Assembly: GCA_907164885.2 (NCBI GenBank)
Contig: OU015490.1
Location: 208,770,103-208,834,102 of the forward strand
Length of the DNA: 64,000 nucleotides
DNA from: Dolomedes plantarius
Taxonomy: Eukaryota; Arthropoda; Arachnida; Araneae; Dolomedidae
Direction: 5' to 3'
Part shown: one piece after another, positions 25,656-59,295 of the stretch
How positions within the stretch are numbered: the stretch's first letter is position 1
Layout: each line of letters begins with the position of its first letter
Position numbers and translations under genes: made by a program
The notes under the pieces: model-generated
Database searches by the model: none
What the model was told of the DNA's origin: nothing
Seen by the model: the letters and a program-made list of their open reading frames with translations, nothing else

Positions 25656-26475
<820 letters not shown>

Positions 26476-26907: not shown

Positions 26908-28670
26908 TCATGACTCCACTAAACGTAAGAAAAATGAAATAAACACTTCGTGGTACAAACATGGTAGGCTTGAATGACATTTTAAATTACGTTTCATTAC
27001 ATTTTTCACGCAAAGACATTTCATACTTTGGCACTTTGTTTTACACATGCATTTGACGAATCCTTGGCCGCTTCCACTAGACTGAGCAATTGCAACTGAC
27101 CGGAGAGGAATTTCGTGGTCAGGAATATCTTCAATTCTAAGCAAGTTCTTATGGCATAGATTGAATTGTTATCTCGCATATAGTTGTTTTAAAATTCCCT
27201 AAGAAGTTCCAAGTCGGTAGAAATCATCGTCTGTCACACTCATTACAACTTCCAATATATTACGCGAATCACCTCGCCTCTTGTCGACGTCAGGAATAGG
27301 AACTAGAACAGTAGTTCCCAAAATAGCAGGGGGAAGTTTTTTTTTCCGAATTCATTTTCATTTTTTTGGCTTGTAGTATTTCCAGATTGATTTTAGAATT
27401 TATTTTACCTTCAATGGGATTTTCAGTTTTGAAACAAAGGGTGCACAAAATATCCATTTCATCATCTTTACTAGCATGGACACAGAAGGTATAAATTTTT
27501 TGGACGACACTTTTTGCATGCAAGTGCATCACTCTTTTCTTTTAAACACTCACAACATGTATCAGAAACGAAAATCTCTTCGGTAAGCATGTCTTCATCA
27601 TGTTGGTTTAATCCACTATCGACTATAATCTAATCCATGCTTTTTGGAACAGGCTCTTTTTCTTGCCTAATATGATTTGTTTCTCTTTTTTCCATTGTTT
27701 GGACGATTTCTATTACTTTTTCTAGCTGCTCCTATGTATTTGTCTTTTAAAACATCTTCGGGTAGAAAAGACGTTGTAAGCCCTACTTTAGGTTTGCAGC
27801 CAAAGAGAGCTTCGTATGGTGTTCTTTTGATCCCTGAATAAGCTCTATTATTCCCAAATTAAACAAAACGCAGTCCTCAACTCCATCGGTCAGATTTGTT
27901 GTCCTGCATCCAAGTACAGAGCATATTTTCGATATCTTGATTATATCTTTTGATACTACCCTGGCTTTGAGGCGAGGCTTCCCATGGACGGTCTTCAGTG
28001 CTGGCCAAAACTCCTTTAAGTTGCACACCACATTATAGGAAAATTACCTACCATTGTCATACTGCAATATAGATGGCGCTCCAAGTAACGAGAATATGTC
28101 CACTAGGTTGTAGGCTACTTCTTCAGCTCTCTTTGACGTTAGAGATTTGAGAATCACAAATTTTGTGAAATGATCTTCGAACACCATAATAAATTTGTAT
28201 TCTCTATCTGGCTGAGACTGAAAGTGAATAAGATTTACACTATAACGGGAATTAATTTCGGAAAATATCATAGGTTTCACAACTAGGTCCTTTTTAATTC
28301 CTTTCTGTTTTTTTTTTTGGCAAGGTTCACAAAGATGGATGTGCAGTTCAATATCATGACGTGTAACGTTTTTGTATTTCGTTGAAAGTTCTTTCAACAT
28401 TCTATCATGTCCTCCGTGTCCAATAGCCAAATGAGCTTCATGAAGTACGAGAGATAACTCAGAGTCCGTGACGTAATACTGTATAGTACTGATGCCTTCT
28501 TTAACAGGATAAATGAGTTTACTTTTTTTTTCTACAATCACCACATCATAGCGATTCAGCCACCAATAGTCCCTGCGTTCCTTCTTAGTACTCATTTTGG
28601 CTTTTTGTACATCATTTATTAACTTCTGGTAAGTAGTTTCGGTTAAGACTGAACTGTTTTTTTGCAGCAT
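26908..28670 (-). pseudogene. KRBA2-type (Ginger-like) integrase pseudogene, copy 1
   Basis: Read from 28670 downward: an open stretch (28670-28044) has the N-terminal region, an H2C2 zinc-binding module (HEAHLAIGHGGHDRML then CEPCQKKK), and the rve core with the first acidic site (NLIHFQS, where copy 3 has DLIDFQS) and second site LQYDNGR. After a stop, a frameshifted stretch gives FWPALKTVHGKP and QGSIKRYNQDIENML. The catalytic E of copy 3 (GSVE) is K here. Further down are PYEALFGCKPKVGL, a partial zinc finger (near 27450-27490) and a Cys-rich tail (GQGFVKCMCKTKC, CHSSLPC). Several stops and frameshifts are present. Related domesticated vertebrate genes include KRBA2; the transposon superfamily name is inference. 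Confidence 0.85.
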
Positions 28671-28671
28671 T

Positions 28672-28846
28672 AGCGTCCTTTACACGTACGCTCTTTCACG
28701 AGTGCTTAGAGCATACGGGATTGAGCGCGGGAAAACTTGCAGTACACTCCAAAGCAGCTTTTACTTCCTCTACGACACCTTCGCACGTTCACTCAATCAC
28801 GTTATGGTTTCACGCGATAAAGAGCGTAAGTGTAAAGGACGCTAAT
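28672..28846. repeat. 175-bp inverted repeat at the 5' side of integrase copy 1
   Basis: TTAGCGTCCTTTACACGTAC (28674 on) and its inverted counterpart (GTAAGTGTAAAGGACGCTAA, ending near 28846) form ~30-bp arms around ~110 bp. The arms contain TTTACAC, echoing the CACTTTAACG motif in the terminal hairpins of the complete element at 55089-57572. It may be that element's subterminal hairpin or a separate small MITE. Confidence 0.6.
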
Positions 28847-28924
28847 AACTCTAATTTTGGACAGTTCATCGTCGAATCGTTGTTTCATGTCTATAGACCA
28901 TGACTTCTGTCACCGTAATATATT

Positions 28925-30490
28925 TATTAGTTATAATATTAGTGGTAGTACGAGTAATTAGAGAGTGATGCTCATATGTATAGATCCAAATCAATTTACG
29001 AAACCAATCATAAAACATATACAAGCAACATTATTCATTGAAGATTTCCGAATTTCTATTTCATTAACACCATATATCTATATATACATTTCAAATTATC
29101 TTTCTTCCTATATCTTATCAATACATTAATTCTGATTATTTATCTAACCTTCATTCTCATCAATATCAACTACTAACATTTTTATCTACTCCCTAACATT
29201 GTTAGATTATCCTACATTCTTAATGGATATACATAAACACATTACAAAATTATTGCAAGATACTACTTCAATTAATATGGATATACACAAGCACTATTTT
29301 ATGATAGATATTCTATGCATAAATGTAAAGATTTCACCTAATCTGCCCTATCTAATTAACTGCGCTCTCTAGTAGGCATTGGGCATTGCTAGGATAAGTC
29401 AAAATACTCTCCTACCTTTTCTGACGACACATCGACATCACAAGCCTTGCTGGGGGAAACATAGGGCTTTTTCGGGCATCGGGCTGTCAGGTCCGGGGGA
29501 ACGGCGGTCACTATCTGTTGCGGCGGCCTCAGGGCGCACGTCTCCGAGAATACCCTCGCGTCGGGGGAGCGTTCGTAAATCCGAAGGTCCGTACCTCATC
29601 ACAAGCATGGCTGGGGGGTCATCGGGCTCTCTGGTCCAGAGGAACTGCTGCAATCATCGGCCTGCGGCGGACTCAGGGTGCTCGTTTCCGCATCTAAGCA
29701 TTTGCTTCGGGGGCGCGTTGGTCCAGAGGAACGGCTGCAATCATCGGCATGCGTCGGACTCAGGGTGCTCGTCTCCGCATCTATCTTATATCGGTTTGCT
29801 TTTCGGGTACCGAGGACATGGCTTGTCTCTCCGGCCTTAAGTTAGCAGCTCGTCATCTCCTTCTCTCTTCCTTCGCCGTTTACAGGGGCTTATGTGTTCT
29901 TAGTGAAAAATCTCAAATCATTCTGCCCTCTCTAAAAACTTTTTCTCTCGAGCTCAACTTCCATCATTATTTATTCAGGCCCTCATTGGTGGCCACCTTC
30001 TGTCCTATAGGTCGATCCGGGGCCCCTTTATTGGCCGATCCCCCATTTTATATTCCTATTTTCTCCAATCAATATTGACGGGGGCGTTCGCCCTTGCACC
30101 TGTCTGGGGTTTCTTACATTTTTAACTTCTCACGCTCTCGTCTGGGTCTCCTGTGGTTTTTCTAACGCTGGTCAACCTCGTAAATTGCCTCACCCCTTTT
30201 CTTCTCCTAACTGTGACTCCGTTTTCAGATTTTCCTCAGCTCATTATCACCAGCTGGGCCCTTCGTTAAACGCAGCTGGTGACCGTTTTCTCATTTCAAT
30301 TGCCCCCTCTCAACTTGTTATCTCTCCCTGCCATTCGCATACGCAGTACATTATCCCGCTGTTCAAGGCATCTCTTTTGTCTGATTCTTTGAATTACATT
30401 CTCTATCACCCCTTTTCTGAACATAGCTCCCCTTTTCTGAACACATGTCGTGTCTCCACGACAACTTCTTCTCCAACACTACAGCTTGTT
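28925..30490 (-). repeat. LTR-like block with GC-rich centre
   Basis: On the minus strand the order is purine-rich with CCAAT motifs (~30.0-30.5 kb), a GC- and CpG-rich middle (29430-29800), then AT-rich (~28.9-29.35 kb). This matches the order seen in the blocks at 35.3-37.3 kb and 60.7-62.0 kb. That layout fits U3-R-U5 of long LTRs. Termini and target duplication were not identified. Long plus-strand frames across it lack domains. Confidence 0.35.
29432..29790 (+). repeat. GC-rich tandem repeats within the LTR-like block
   Basis: CATCACAAGCCTTGCTGGGG (29432) recurs as CATCACAAGCATGGCTGGGG (29598). A ~76-bp unit with TGGTCCAGAGGAAC-GCTGCA, ATCATCGGC and ACTCAGGGTGCTCGT occurs at about 29633 and 29709, with a more diverged unit near 29490. 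It is strikingly CpG-rich against the AT-rich window. Confidence 0.8.
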
Positions 30491-30689
30491 CCTCCATTTT
30501 CATGCAGCACAATAAAAAACTAATTTTTTGTTGAACAAATTTAAGTAAAATTGCGTATTTTGACACTCCCGAACAAACCGCAAAGGGCAATTAACAAATT
30601 CTGAGCCAGAGGCGCACATTAAAAGTCGAGTGCCTTGCCACGGGATATTCGAAACGAATCGGAGATGTATCTCAAACTTTGCCGGTTTC

Positions 30690-30824
30690 TCATTTGCCAT
30701 TTTATAGAATGCCTAGGAAATGTGTGAAATATGAATCGTTTCATACATTGGCGGCTAGTTTTAGGCATTATATACAATGCCTAGGCATTCTATAGAATGC
30801 CGGATTTCACACTTTCCCGGGAAC
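30690..30824 (+). repeat. isolated terminus of the integrase element family
   Basis: Two adjacent palindromes, GGCATTATATACAATGCC and GGCATTCTATAGAATGCC, are followed by GGATTTCACACTTTCCCGGG then AACG. This is the same layout and near the same sequence as the right end of 55089-57572 (GGATTTCATACTTTAACGGT then AACA). No integrase coding adjoins it. The frame 30500-30700 (-) lies just inside and has no recognisable domain. Confidence 0.65.
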
Positions 30825-30825
30825 G

Positions 30826-36368: not shown

Positions 36369-37148
36369 TTCTTTTACTCTGTACCATATCTCATTATTAA
36401 TTCCTAGACACGCCTCTTCCAATCTCATTGGCCATATTATCCTAATCTCTTCTCATTTCTTCTTCTTTATTGGCTGGGGATGTTCCCTCTATATTCACTT
36501 CCAACCATTCTCAGAGTGCGCGTTCTATTCGACGCTACAGCTGCTTCCCTGCTTTTTCTCGTGGTTAGTTCACGTTTCTTCTACAATGGATATACCCCTT
36601 TATTAGCCCTCATAAATTCATTTCTGTCTTCTCTGTGCTTCGCCCTTGTATTGAAGAACTCTACTTTTATTATTTCACAGCCTTCTTTTGCCTCTAATCT
36701 CATTTTTATCTCTGCACTTATTTTCAACATCTGGTCTTTTCTATACCGTAGTTTAGACTCTGTTCTTTTACTCTGTACCATATCTCATTATTAATTCCTA
36801 GACACGCCTCTTCCAATCTCATTGGCCATATTATCCTAATCTCTTCTCATTTCTTCTTCTTTATTGGCTGGGGATGTTCCCTCTATATTCACTTCCAACC
36901 ATTCTCAGAGTGCGCGTTCTATTCGACGCTACAGCTGCTTCCCTGCTTTTTCTCGTGGTTAGTTCACGTTTCTTCTACAATGGATATACCCCTTTATTAG
37001 CCCTCATAAATTCATTTCTGTCTTCTCTGTGCTTCGCCCTTGTATTGAAGAACTCTACTTTTATTATTTCACAGCCTTCTTTTGCCTCTAATCTCATTTT
37101 TATCTCTGCACTTATTTTCAACATCTGGTCTTTTCTATACCGTAGTTT
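36369..37148. repeat. 386-bp tandem duplication, apparently 100% identical
   Basis: 36369-36754 is repeated at 36763-37148 (offset 394) with an 8-bp spacer AGACTCTG. I saw no mismatch between the copies. The duplicated segment belongs to the purine/pyrimidine-skewed part of the LTR-like block. It duplicates the frame beginning at 36480 and 36874. Confidence 0.93.
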
Positions 37149-51779: not shown

Positions 51780-52018
<239 letters not shown>

Positions 52019-52089
52019 CGGGCAACTGTGTGACCACGGTCCACATCAGGGACTTATATTCAAGCTATATATCATAGCGCAAACGGTAT

Positions 52090-53252
<1,163 letters not shown>

Positions 53253-55025: not shown

Positions 55026-55088
55026 TCACAATGACAAAAATACGATTATATTTGAAATAGTTAAATTATTCTTTTCTCTAAGCGAAAA

Positions 55089-57572
55089 TGTTACCGTTAA
55101 AGTATATAATGCAGTTATTTCATAGAATACCTAGTTATTCTATAAAATAACTGATCGTGTCCGTTAAAGTGTGTAATATGTTATTAATTTGGCACTTTAA
55201 CTAGTTATTCTATGAAATAACTAGGTATTCTATAAATTAACTAATGAGAGACAGTTAAAGTGTAAAATAAACAATTTATCTAAAATGAAATTAAACTAAT
55301 GATAGACAATTAAAATGAAAAAGAAGCAATTTATCTAAATTATGCAGCGTATAAATGGTATTTATGGAATCGTACCATAAAATCATTTGTTACAACAAGG
55401 ATTACTAAAATGACACTTGGAATTACAAAGAACATTATTTCTAAAACTAAAACATTTTTTGTTGACACACTGGATTTTACACGAACATTTTTTAAATCCC
55501 TGACCAGTACCTAAACTTTGAGCTGTAGCAACCGACCGGAGCGATATTTCTACATCCGGTACTTCTTCGATTTTAATTAATTTTTGTTCGCAGACACTGA
55601 ACTGGAATCGGGAATATAATTGTTTTATGCGGCCGTTTCTTGTGCCCAATTGGAAAAATCCTTCTTCGGTTATTTTTATGATGATAGCTAAAATAGATTT
55701 GGCATCACCTTTTCCTCTGTCAACTTCAGGCACTGGGATACGGACAGTAAACCCCACAGATGCTTCAGAAAGAGATTTATCCGACATTAATTTCATCTTT
55801 TTCGCTTGAATTTCTAAACATTTTTTAGACTTTTCTCTTTCTCTTTGAACATTAAGTTCATTAAAACACAATTTGAAGATTTGCTGCTCAACTTCATCCT
55901 CTGAAACATAATCTTCCAAACATGATATATGGACAGGCTCCATACATTTGAAGCAAACTATATCTTCACTGCATTCTTTTAAACAGACAACACATACTTT
56001 CGTAATGGGATTATTTAATACTGTTTGTTCAACTACTTTTTCATTATCAGGTTGAGAAGAAACATTCATTGCAGTCAAAGTATTTTGTAATTGATCTTCG
56101 TCGACCAACGAATTAAGTGCTTCCTTCGGAATGGCAGTTGTTGACAGTCCAACTCTAGCTGCGCAACCAAACATAGCCTCTTAGGGGGACCTTTTAATAC
56201 CTGAATGGAACGCTCTGTTCTTCATAAACTGGATAAATTTTAACCCGTTACTCCACGAAGTTGAGTGGTTGTCTTGCATCCAAGTCGTCAACATATTTTC
56301 TATGTCCTGATTGGCTCTTCAACACTGCCTTGGCTTTGGCTATGTCTTGGTTTGTCATGCACGATCTTAAGCTCTGGCCAAGTTACTTTTAAGTCATCAA
56401 TGAGTTTGTTACAAAATTCTCTTCCATTGTCCGACTGCAATATACATGGGGCTCCAAACAACAGGAATATATCAAGCAACTGTCCTGCAACTTCTTCTGC
56501 TCTCTTTGTTTGAAGAGGTCTTAAAACCACGAACTTTGTAAGGTGATCTTGATAAACTAAAATAAATTTATAGTTTCCATCAGGTTGTGATTGAAAATCT
56601 ATGAGGTCAACCTGACATCTTGAATTCATATGTGAAAAAATCATGGGCTTAATAACAACACCTTTTTCTGCCCGCTTTGCGTTTTTGTTGACAAGATTCA
56701 CAAAAATTCAGGAAAATCTTAATATCATTTTGCGTAATATTTTTGTAACGACGATTAAGTTCTTTTATCATTCGGTCTCTACCACCGTGCCCAATAGATA
56801 AATGAGTTTCGTACAAAATGTTAAACAAAGAATCACTTGAGCAATAAAACATTACATCTGGTGTTGCATTTGTTACTGGGACTATTAATTTTTCTACTCC
56901 TTGAACTTCAAGGACATCGTAATGTTGAAGTAACCAATAATCACGTGGCACTTTCTTATCTGATGTTTTAGATTTCTGTACATCAGCTATCAAAACTTAA
57001 TAATTTTTCACGGGTGAGCAAAGAACTGTTCTCTTTCACATCACGCTTATTTAGTAAAGATTCAAACTTTTCTTTCATTGCAGCTTTTTTTTCGTTATCA
57101 CTTAAAGAATTCATTGTTCAAGGCAATTTAAGGTCTTAAAAATAATTGCACTTTAACGTAAGCAAACTAAATTAACGGAATAACAAATGACTAAATTATA
57201 AAACTTAAAAAAATAAATGTATCTGAATACCTGATACGTGGAAATAGTATTTGACGAACAGCAGCCGGTACTGTACGTGCAAGCAATCAATTAACCGGAA
57301 TGAACTGGTGCCAACACGCTAAACAAGTTCTCTCCCTATGGCCTGGAATAGTTCATAAATGCAGTAGGGGTGGAAGGTAAATGTATTTGTCGTGCGAGAT
57401 ATATGATATGCATTATTTTACACTTTAACGGGCTGCAGATCGTTATTCTATGAAGTAACTAGTTAAACCATGAAATACAAGAGAGTTTTACACTTTAACG
57501 GACACGATCAGTTATTTCATGGAATAACTAGGTATTCTATAAAATAACGGATTTCATACTTTAACGGTAACA
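55089..57572 (-). mobile_element. near-complete Ginger-like integrase DNA transposon with long hairpin TIRs
   Basis: 2484 bp. The ends 55089-55172 and 57489-57572 are inverted repeats of about 84 bp beginning TGTTACCGTTAAAGTAT. Each TIR contains its own fold-back (AGTTATTTCATAGAATA paired with TATTCTATAAAATAACT). Further inside, TTAAAGTG/CACTTTAA motifs recur, and two ~65-bp subterminal repeats (AACTAATGA-AGACA--TAAA, CAATTTATCTAAA) lie at 55240-55345. It codes one integrase on the minus strand. Integrase plus TGT-type TIRs without RT fits Ginger-like DNA transposons; no clean target duplication was seen. Confidence 0.88.
55383..57114 (-). pseudogene. KRBA2-type integrase, nearly full length, four lesions
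   Basis: Start ATG at 57114 (MNSLSDNEKKAAMKEKFESL). Domains in order: N-terminal helix; H2C2 zinc module (HLSIGHGGRDRM, then CESCQQKR); rve core with DLIDFQS, LQSDNGREF and GSVE (about 36 residues between second D and E), so the triad is intact. Then ANQDIENMLTTWMQDN, FMKNRAFHSGIKRSP, MFGCAARVGL, a Cys-rich finger (CVVCLKEC, CFKC, HISC) and a C-terminal Cys tail (GQGFKKCSCKIQC, CNSKCH). Lesions: frameshifts near 56990, 56670 and 56310, and TAA at 56178-56180 where copy 1 has Tyr. Role: integration of its own element. Resembles arthropod proteins named after vertebrate KRBA2. Confidence 0.9.
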
Positions 57573-57790: not shown

Positions 57791-59295
57791 CGCTAGTTAT
57801 CAAAAATTAAGGAAAAATCACAAAAAGAAGATAGCACGTTCAAAACTAGTCCAATCTGTTGAAAATTGGAATATGTAATTAATTAAAAGGTGCTGAGCAA
57901 TAATACATTATGCAAAAAGGTGGCGCTGCAGTCGGAATACGTCATTTGCGAGGAGCATAAAAGTGCATGTCTCAGAGCAAGGCCACAATTGTCGCTTCGA
58001 GGCTGAGATCAGACATCTGGCATAGCCAAATTGTAACAATGACATCCAGACATAATTTGACCAAAGAACTGCGATGGCGAGCTATTGGGAGAGTAGAGGT
58101 AGGACAAATTCAGACAGAAGTGGACAGATGGCTAAATGTGAGACCGTCTGTGGTTCATAGAATTTGGCAACAATTTCCAACCACGGATTCGGCATCCAGG
58201 AGGTTCAGCCAAGGACGGCCATATACTACGACGAATGCCGATGACCGATATTTGTCATTATGGACACGAAGGAATAGTACCGCAACTCTGTCTGCAAGAT
58301 CCGTCTGAACACATACTCCCTCGCTGCAAGCTAAGCGGTTTGGTATCAACGTCGACAGTGCATAGAAGGCTTGACGAAGGTGATCTTTATGCGGGGCGAC
58401 CAGCCATTTGTGCCCCGCTCACGCCACGCCATAGGCGGGAACGCTTGCATTGACCACACCAACGTGTCCACTGGACGCGTGATCAATGGAGAGCTGTTCT
58501 CTTTACGGATGAGTCCAGGTTTAGCCTCCAAAGCGTTAGTAGGCGTATTTTGATTTGGAGAGAACCTGGAACTCGTTTACTTCCATCACACATCCGTGAA
58601 AGATATGCATACGGATAAGGCAGTGTCTGTGTTTGGGGTGGTAGCTCTTTGGGTGGACGCACAGACCGCCATGTCTTTCCCAGTGGAAATGTGAATGCTC
58701 ACACATATAAAGATGATATCCTTGATGCTTATGTGCGCCTTTATGCCGGGGCAATAGGTGATGCTTTCGTGCTACAGGACTATAACGCGAGACCGCAGAG
58801 ATCTCGTATCGGGGATGCTTAACTTGAGCAGGAAACAATTCAGCGCATGGAGTGGCCAGCTCGATCACCGGACCTGAATCCTATCGAGCATGTTTGGGAC
58901 GCTTAAGGTCGACGTATAGCTGCTATCAATACTCCTCTTAGGGCCCTAGCCATGCTTTTAACTGCTTTGCAAAATCAATGGCTCTCACTTCGTACCGAAC
59001 TCATAGACCGCATAACTGACAGCATCACACATCGCTGTAGATGCTGTATTGCTTCTCAAAGGGATCATACGCCATATTAAAGGAACTTTTCCTATACCAA
59101 ACTGATACATCCGATTTGTTCATGGTATACTTATACAAGTTTCTATAACACCATAATTGTCTTACGATATCCTTTTATGCTATTTTATACCTACCTATGT
59201 GTTGTATAATGTGTGTAAGTGTCATTTAATTCTGCGCGTAACTTTTTGAGTAATCGCTATTTTTGTGACTTTTCCTGAATTTTTGATAACCAGTG
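57791..59295 (+). mobile_element. Tc1-like DD34E transposon (second family)
   Basis: 1505 bp. TIRs start CGCTAGTTATCAAAAATTAA and, inverse, CACTGGTTATCAAAAATTCA, and continue GGAAAA-TCACAAAAA (about 35 bp). TA lies at 57789-57790; the right TA has decayed. Contains one broken transposase gene. Confidence 0.88.
58038..59080 (+). pseudogene. Tc1-like DD34E transposase (broken, second family)
   Basis: Likely start ATG at 58038 (MTSRHNLTKELRWRAIGRVE); an upstream in-frame ATG at 57967 is less likely because the family starts at the helix-turn-helix. Seen in order: SVVHRIWQQFPTTDSASRRF, GRP, ADDRYLSL, then after frameshifts STSTVHRRLDEGDLYAGRPA, TDESRF (first D), LQDYNARP where the second catalytic D is Tyr, and RMEWPARSPDLNPIEHVW (E, 34 residues after the Y). 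It ends HRCRCCIASQRDHTPY and TAA at 59078. Multiple frameshifts plus the D-to-Y change make it dead. Confidence 0.9.

Follow-up and report, generated by a model that had tools for sequence, protein, structure and literature searches.

Palindromic units at a fixed distance inside the ends of Ginger2-type transposons in Dolomedes plantarius

The window analysed here, a 64,000-nucleotide stretch of the Dolomedes plantarius genome, contains a Ginger2-type transposon (copy A) with a KRBA2-like pseudogene between terminal inverted repeats (TIRs), together with copy B, from a second family, and copy C, a relative of a family that we call E. The first bases of copy A are TGTTACCG and its last bases CGGTAACA. 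The features, in window coordinates, are:

26956..30825, no strand assigned: copy B, second family; broken coding part within 26956-28909 (minus strand); right end at 30660-30825 with a double palindrome, axis 43 bp from the terminus
52015..53141, no strand assigned: copy C, relative of family E; coding remnant within 52015-53098 (minus strand); right end closing CGGTAACA, with palindromic units
55089..57572, no strand assigned: copy A, whole Ginger2-type transposon, 2484 bp, flanked by AAAA on the left and TATA on the right
55089..55172, plus strand: left TIR
55094..55110, plus strand: left terminal motif 1, CCGTTAAAGTATATAAT, putative transposase site
55113..55152, no strand assigned: left double 20-bp palindrome, axis 44 bp from the terminus, 18/20 pairs
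55161..55177, plus strand: left motif 2, CCGTTAAAGTGTGTAAT, 67 bp from motif 1
55203..55242, no strand assigned: left second palindromic array
55252..55268, plus strand: left motif 3, CAGTTAAAGTGTAAAAT
55383..57114, minus strand: KRBA2-like integrase/transposase pseudogene with three frame changes and one in-frame stop
55386..55505, minus strand: C-terminal Cys-rich module, CXC (Tesmin/TSO1)-like, sub-threshold match
57415..57431, minus strand: right motif 3
57441..57477, no strand assigned: right second palindromic array, degenerate
57485..57501, minus strand: right motif 2
57489..57572, minus strand: right TIR
57510..57549, no strand assigned: right double 20-bp palindrome, axis 43 bp from the terminus, 16/20 pairs
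57551..57567, minus strand: right terminal motif 1, CCGTTAAAGTATGAAAT, putative transposase site

The TIRs of copy A, which the original prediction had recognised, are real and share 91.7% identity over 84 versus 83 bp, or 82% over 133 versus 131 bp. No target duplication was seen at copy A, the left flank reading AAAA and the right TATA, and its left flank (window 55070-55088) lacks the TA-rich target that most other copies have; together, these two features make a later rearrangement on the left side likely. Just beyond its right end, at window 57961-58453, lie open frames that resemble a Tc1/mariner-type transposase remnant. In copy B, about 1.75 kb between the coding part and the right end (window 28910-30660) has no blastn match to copy A. 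The window has two further features. At 36369-37148 a 394-bp unit is followed directly by a second copy with 100% identity, so either the duplication is very recent or the assembly is at fault here. Nested inverted arms at 25802-26454, the inner pair 81 bp long at 90% and separated by 394 bp, the outer pair 45 bp long at 93%, mark a candidate small inverted-repeat element.

The pseudogene of copy A encodes, in order, an N-terminal part, an H2C2 zinc finger, a D-D-E core, a Cys-rich module, a C-terminal domain and a CXC-like tail. The integrase had been predicted to be nearly complete; its domains are indeed present, but the three frame changes and the in-frame stop break it. The predicted D, D and E are all legible, spread over its pieces, and both predicted Cys-rich C-terminal modules are there, the first occupying the Znf_SCAND3 position of relatives. 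The closest relative of the read-through query is P0001 (complete, 576 aa; 97% identical), to which the C-terminal piece is 97% and the catalytic piece 89% identical; its triad is D169, D228 and E265, spaced by 58 and 36 residues. The second-best relative, named after the spider Argiope bruennichi, shows 91% identity over 65% of the query. Many protein matches are named KRAB-A domain-containing protein 2-like and one SCAN domain-containing protein 3-like. The original prediction of an integrase-type DNA transposon with a KRBA2-like protein was right. The likeness, drawn from the names of protein matches, is to the same protein type; mammalian KRBA2 and SCAND3 are listed under rve in the accessible text of PMC3257199. 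Unlike these mammalian genes, the sequence described here is part of a mobile element whose copies have TIRs and target duplications.

In P0001, PF17921 (H2C2) scores just over its cut-off and PF00665 (rve; E 3.9e-6) below it; at E<=5 the two are matched in 19/20 and 20/20 relatives, respectively. The best PDB match of the DDE core is prototype foamy virus (PFV) integrase, both by sequence (E 1.2e-14) and in a fold search (E 8.6e-18, TM-score 0.31, from a moderate model with mean pLDDT 72). Znf_SCAND3 is matched in six of the 20 relatives, P0001 not among them. The 40-residue Cys-rich tail is present in 19 relatives and absent from one. When five tail fragments were scanned, their only Pfam matches were CXC domains, all below cut-off (TCR in 4/5, E 0.016-1.3; preSET_CXC in two), and a PDB profile search with the tail as query gave no useful match. 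The published strict CXC superfamily consensus fits one of 16 tails; a looser pattern fits 16/16 but was derived from those very sequences and is hence circular. CXC domains bind DNA and contain a Zn3Cys9 cluster, and that of MSL2 is monomeric in solution, according to the accessible part of PMC3447885.

A DNA search of the 2.78-Gb, 390-contig host assembly, in which 40 of 422 candidates were scored, yielded at least 18 full-length family A copies including copy A (positions 1 to 2480 or 2484), the other 17 at 97-98%, as well as internally deleted copies that retain both ends. Ends and target-site duplications of family A were counted in the 23 both-ended copies among 30 loci (L009-L038); one-ended loci were excluded from the duplication counts. 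Identical 4-bp duplications flank 16 of the 23 (14 TATA, one CATA, one AATA), and all 16 have a purine (A or G) just before them and a pyrimidine (C or T) just after (R-TSD-Y). Five of the 16 are found away from TA repeats, which means that microsatellite alone does not explain the duplications. Locus L041 contains a paralogous empty site for the insertion at L017; the two agree at 86% across 295 aligned columns, and a single gap of 16 bases lies close to the junction. An open frame of at least 548 codons persists in five of the 23 both-ended copies, one of them encoding the full-length 576-aa protein. The cut-and-paste family is young; copy A is one of its dead elements, and some other copies keep long open frames.

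More distant relatives came from a genome protein search, with 76 of 16,983 candidates scored, which gave 51 further loci at 46-63% identity. We inspected 24 of these, 20 whole and four by short flanks, and found both ends in 12 of the 20 whole loci. They include family D (L039-L050, L061), family E (L052-L058, L063) and the single loci F (L059) and G (L062). TGTTA ends occur in D, E, F and G, TATA adjoins many of them, and target duplications were found in 2/8 both-ended copies of family D and 3/4 of family E. The 47% relative L051 (C12:37911268-37913031), with 12 stop codons in the match, showed no recognisable ends, and a right end for F was looked for in L060 and not found. The family of copy B has at least 40 matching right ends in the genome. 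Six of these right ends (copies L064-L069) begin TGTTACCGGCAAA and have their axis at 43 bp in 6/6; a 4-bp insertion in the family B terminus was considered and rejected, since these copies show a clean terminus where the window copy is damaged.

By ends, target sequence, duplication length and domains, the family fits Ginger2/Tdd as defined in the accessible text of Bao et al. 2010 (PMC2836005), which describes TGTNR termini, 4-bp duplications, RTATAY targets, TIRs of about 50-180 bp and an H2C2 finger with a DDE core, and no GPY/F or YPYY motif. The elements described here end TGTTA...TAACA, in agreement with TGTNR...YNACA, the 84-bp TIRs of copy A lie within the described length range, and the families show 4-bp duplications in RTATAY, absent at copy A itself. 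Likewise, their proteins combine H2C2 and DDE, and regular expressions for GPY/F and YPYY found neither motif in 20 relatives (0/20). At 2484 bp copy A is shorter than the shortest autonomous family listed in the accessible part of PMC2836005 (2751 bp). In the comparison with both Ginger groups called for by the original prediction, the family fits Ginger2/Tdd. Ginger1 was rejected: the duplications are TATA, CATA or AATA, not CCGG or CCGT, no OTU or Ulp1 C-terminal domain gave a Pfam match in the 20 relatives, and GPY/F is lacking. PiggyBac was rejected on the TATA rather than TTAA target and the rve and H2C2 domains.

The original prediction had each TIR fold as a whole into a palindrome; this proved too wide. 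Each palindrome of copy A is 40 bp long, lies inside the 84-bp TIR, of which it covers about 40 bp, and consists of two 20-bp units, each imperfectly palindromic. Because both units are palindromic in themselves, axes recur every 10 bp (33/34, 43/44 and 53/54). The palindromes themselves are real: none of 2000 dinucleotide shuffles matched the 18/20 pairs of 55113-55152 or the 16/20 of 57510-57549, and the share of 3000 window background pieces reaching these values was 0 and 0.0007, respectively. None of 95 interior pieces of copy A reaches 16/20 pairs, nor does any of 626 coding pieces of other copies, one of which reaches 14. A foldback element was rejected, the palindrome comprising about 40 of 84 bp with arms that do not span most of the TIR. 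Foldback/Galileo elements have repetitive, self-complementary ends; the ends here are likewise repetitive and self-complementary, but only some 40 bp of each array form a palindrome, in an element that is short and compact. A check set beforehand found palindromes in all of the 23 both-ended family A copies examined, copy A included, with single changes in a few, which rules out a rearrangement private to copy A.

We compared nine ends from families A, B, D, E and F and copy C, all from one genome. The best dyad with 20-bp arms has its axis 43-44 bp from the terminus in eight of the nine; each of the nine dyads has p <= 0.0025 against 2000 dinucleotide shuffles and p 0-0.022 against 3000 window background pieces. 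Arms of 9 bp alone are weaker (p 0.0005-0.04 and 0.004-0.053, respectively). In copy C the best axis lies at 33 (14/20 pairs) and the second at 43 (12/20); family E has about 1.5 units with 14-15/20 pairs. Where there is a single unit, its axis lies at 34 (G) or, in 7/8 such ends of family D, at 33-34. The letters of the palindromes are family-specific: a left half agrees on average in 16.1/20 positions with its own right half and in 9.0/20 with right halves from other families (62 comparisons, maximum 14), and with one end per family the true assignment alone among 120 attains the observed sum of half-matches. In contrast to these halves, the first 22 bp are conserved across families, with 15.9/22 agreement. 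The palindromes have been kept at a fixed distance inside the ends while their letters changed between families.

Pairing was preserved through these changes. In the nine-row alignment 83.3% of cells are paired and both sides have changed in 14/20 pairs, with 0/500 shuffles as good; the covariation score is 0.586 versus 0.196, again reached by 0/500 shuffles, and sliding the partners by 1-3 columns lowers pairing to 28-40%. One of five covariation measures, the number of further pair types, lay within the shuffles (123/500). Since the two ends of a family do not count as independent, the covariation rests on five families and copy C; G is absent from the alignment because it has a single unit.

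The number of units varies even between close relatives. Family D coding parts are 95.5-97.9% identical, yet their ends carry two units or one, differing by exactly 20 bp; 4/10 left and 4/10 right ends have a single unit. The variants are scattered over a star-like tree with inner branches near zero, and the spacing of motifs 1 and 2 shrinks from 67 to 47 bp among those right ends that were compared. On the left side of L039-L050, two different junction letters accompany the variation. Such 20-bp steps, and units that look derived from the terminal motif, would suit the main rival to a binding function, namely that the palindromes are a functionless mutational byproduct, having arisen as inverted and tandem duplicates of the terminal motif whose symmetry is maintained by template switching and slippage. 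This account sits poorly with an axis held at 43-44 bp (33-34 for a single unit) though the halves of different families match at 9/20, and with coding parts without such dyads, and we regard it as improbable.

Within each family the ten-base half-sites tend to look like the family's terminal motif (core G-N-N-A), with G-T-T-A in A, G-G-C-A in B and G, G-C-C-A in D and G-T-G-A in E; those of F read G-C-T-A or G-T-T-A, and some half-sites deviate from the rule. This resemblance was spotted by eye before being tested. With one end per family, the true assignment of half-sites to terminal cores was the best of 120 in each of two sets of ends, and when six families were used, with the damaged B terminus, 2/720 assignments reached the observed match. 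The terminal core of family A fits the half-sites of F at 6.25/10 and those of its own family and of E at 5.50 each. The clean family B terminus, read after the test, carries GC like its half-sites, whereas the damaged window copy did not fit.

The original prediction raised the idea that the palindromes act as hairpins or cruciforms; on this reading the ends would extrude under supercoiling and the transposase would recognise or cut the extruded form. The copy A palindromes do fold well as single strands (left and right, -9.9 and -7.2 kcal/mol; z -6.2 and -4.1), and pairing maintained through changes on both sides would be expected of a hairpin. The unit, however, is just 20 bp with arms of 10 bp, each array has one or two such units, the copy C end folds barely beyond shuffles (z -1.8, 10/200), and the half-sites tend to carry letters of the family's terminal motif, unnecessary for a pure hairpin. 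That half-sites tend to repeat the terminal motif favours a paired protein-binding site over a cruciform, and we think the hairpin reading unlikely, somewhat more so than the byproduct. Binding of a host or regulatory protein (operator or insulator) in place of transposase is very improbable: dyads of this size suit any dimeric regulator and the right array lies upstream of the gene, but the palindromes occur at both ends and their letters vary between families along with the terminal motif, which a common host factor would not follow.

We therefore favour, as the probable reading of these sequences, ordered end arrays of Ginger2/Tdd type in which the palindromic units are inverted pairs of a recognition core, bound by transposase dimers. 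The order from the tip inwards is the terminal motif (approximately CCGnnAAAG....AAAT, bases 6-22), one or two 20-bp palindromic units and a second motif; family A ends carry an extra array and a third motif beyond it. Motifs 1 and 2 are usually 66-67 bp apart (77 bp in the D left end), and a pattern search found no second motif in the E left end, C and G. Each palindromic unit would be an inverted pair of the core that also makes the terminal motif. We infer that the transposase, catalytically active as a dimer or tetramer like retroviral intasomes, would grip the terminal motif near its active site, while transposase dimers, possibly through the CXC-like C-terminal zinc module, would occupy the palindromes, bend the DNA and keep both ends together until the strands are transferred, 4 bp staggered, into RTATAY targets; this binding may be needed for transposition. 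It is tempting to go further and propose, tentatively and as a reading that may well be wrong, a code in two registers: a monomer site at the tip and inverted G-N-N-A core pairs centred 43 bp inside, read by dimers of the CXC-like tail, with core letters that vary with the transposase between families and unit numbers that change in steps of two helical turns.

PiggyBac is alike in outline: its end combines a terminal motif with an internal repeat that is a 19-bp palindrome, and its transposase carries a Cys-rich zinc module at the C-terminus. In the accessible text of PMC7351741, a dimer of this CRD on the internal repeat bends one end by about 40 degrees. It differs in its transposase family, TTAA targets and cross-brace finger versus the CXC-like module here, and no kinship is claimed. 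Some subterminal transposase sites of piggyBat restrict transposition, as the accessible part of PMC11707139 reports, so the palindromic units here could restrain rather than help.

The palindromes are a genuine end architecture within a known superfamily. We know of no Ginger group for which end recognition has been worked out. In the accessible text of Bao et al. (PMC2836005), the enzymatic mechanism of Ginger1 excision is stated as unknown, and palindromic units are not mentioned in its account of Ginger2/Tdd. In the literature that was searchable we did not find this end architecture described: among the matches listed, Ginger2, palindromes and terminal inverted repeats came together in one paper, on Kolobok, and KRBA2 with Ginger gave off-topic matches. 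No relatives were confirmed in the viral_contigs, genome_contigs and phages collections, and the palindrome pattern of family B had no exact match in viral_contigs.

KRBA2-type Ginger2 transposons are relatives of Gypsy and retroviral integrases. The families described here differ in core letters and offer near-identical copies as well as some long open frames, so that simple swaps could test how an integrase-type transposase recognises its ends. Should the tail module read the palindromes as that of piggyBac does, two unrelated transposase lineages would have reached the same end design.
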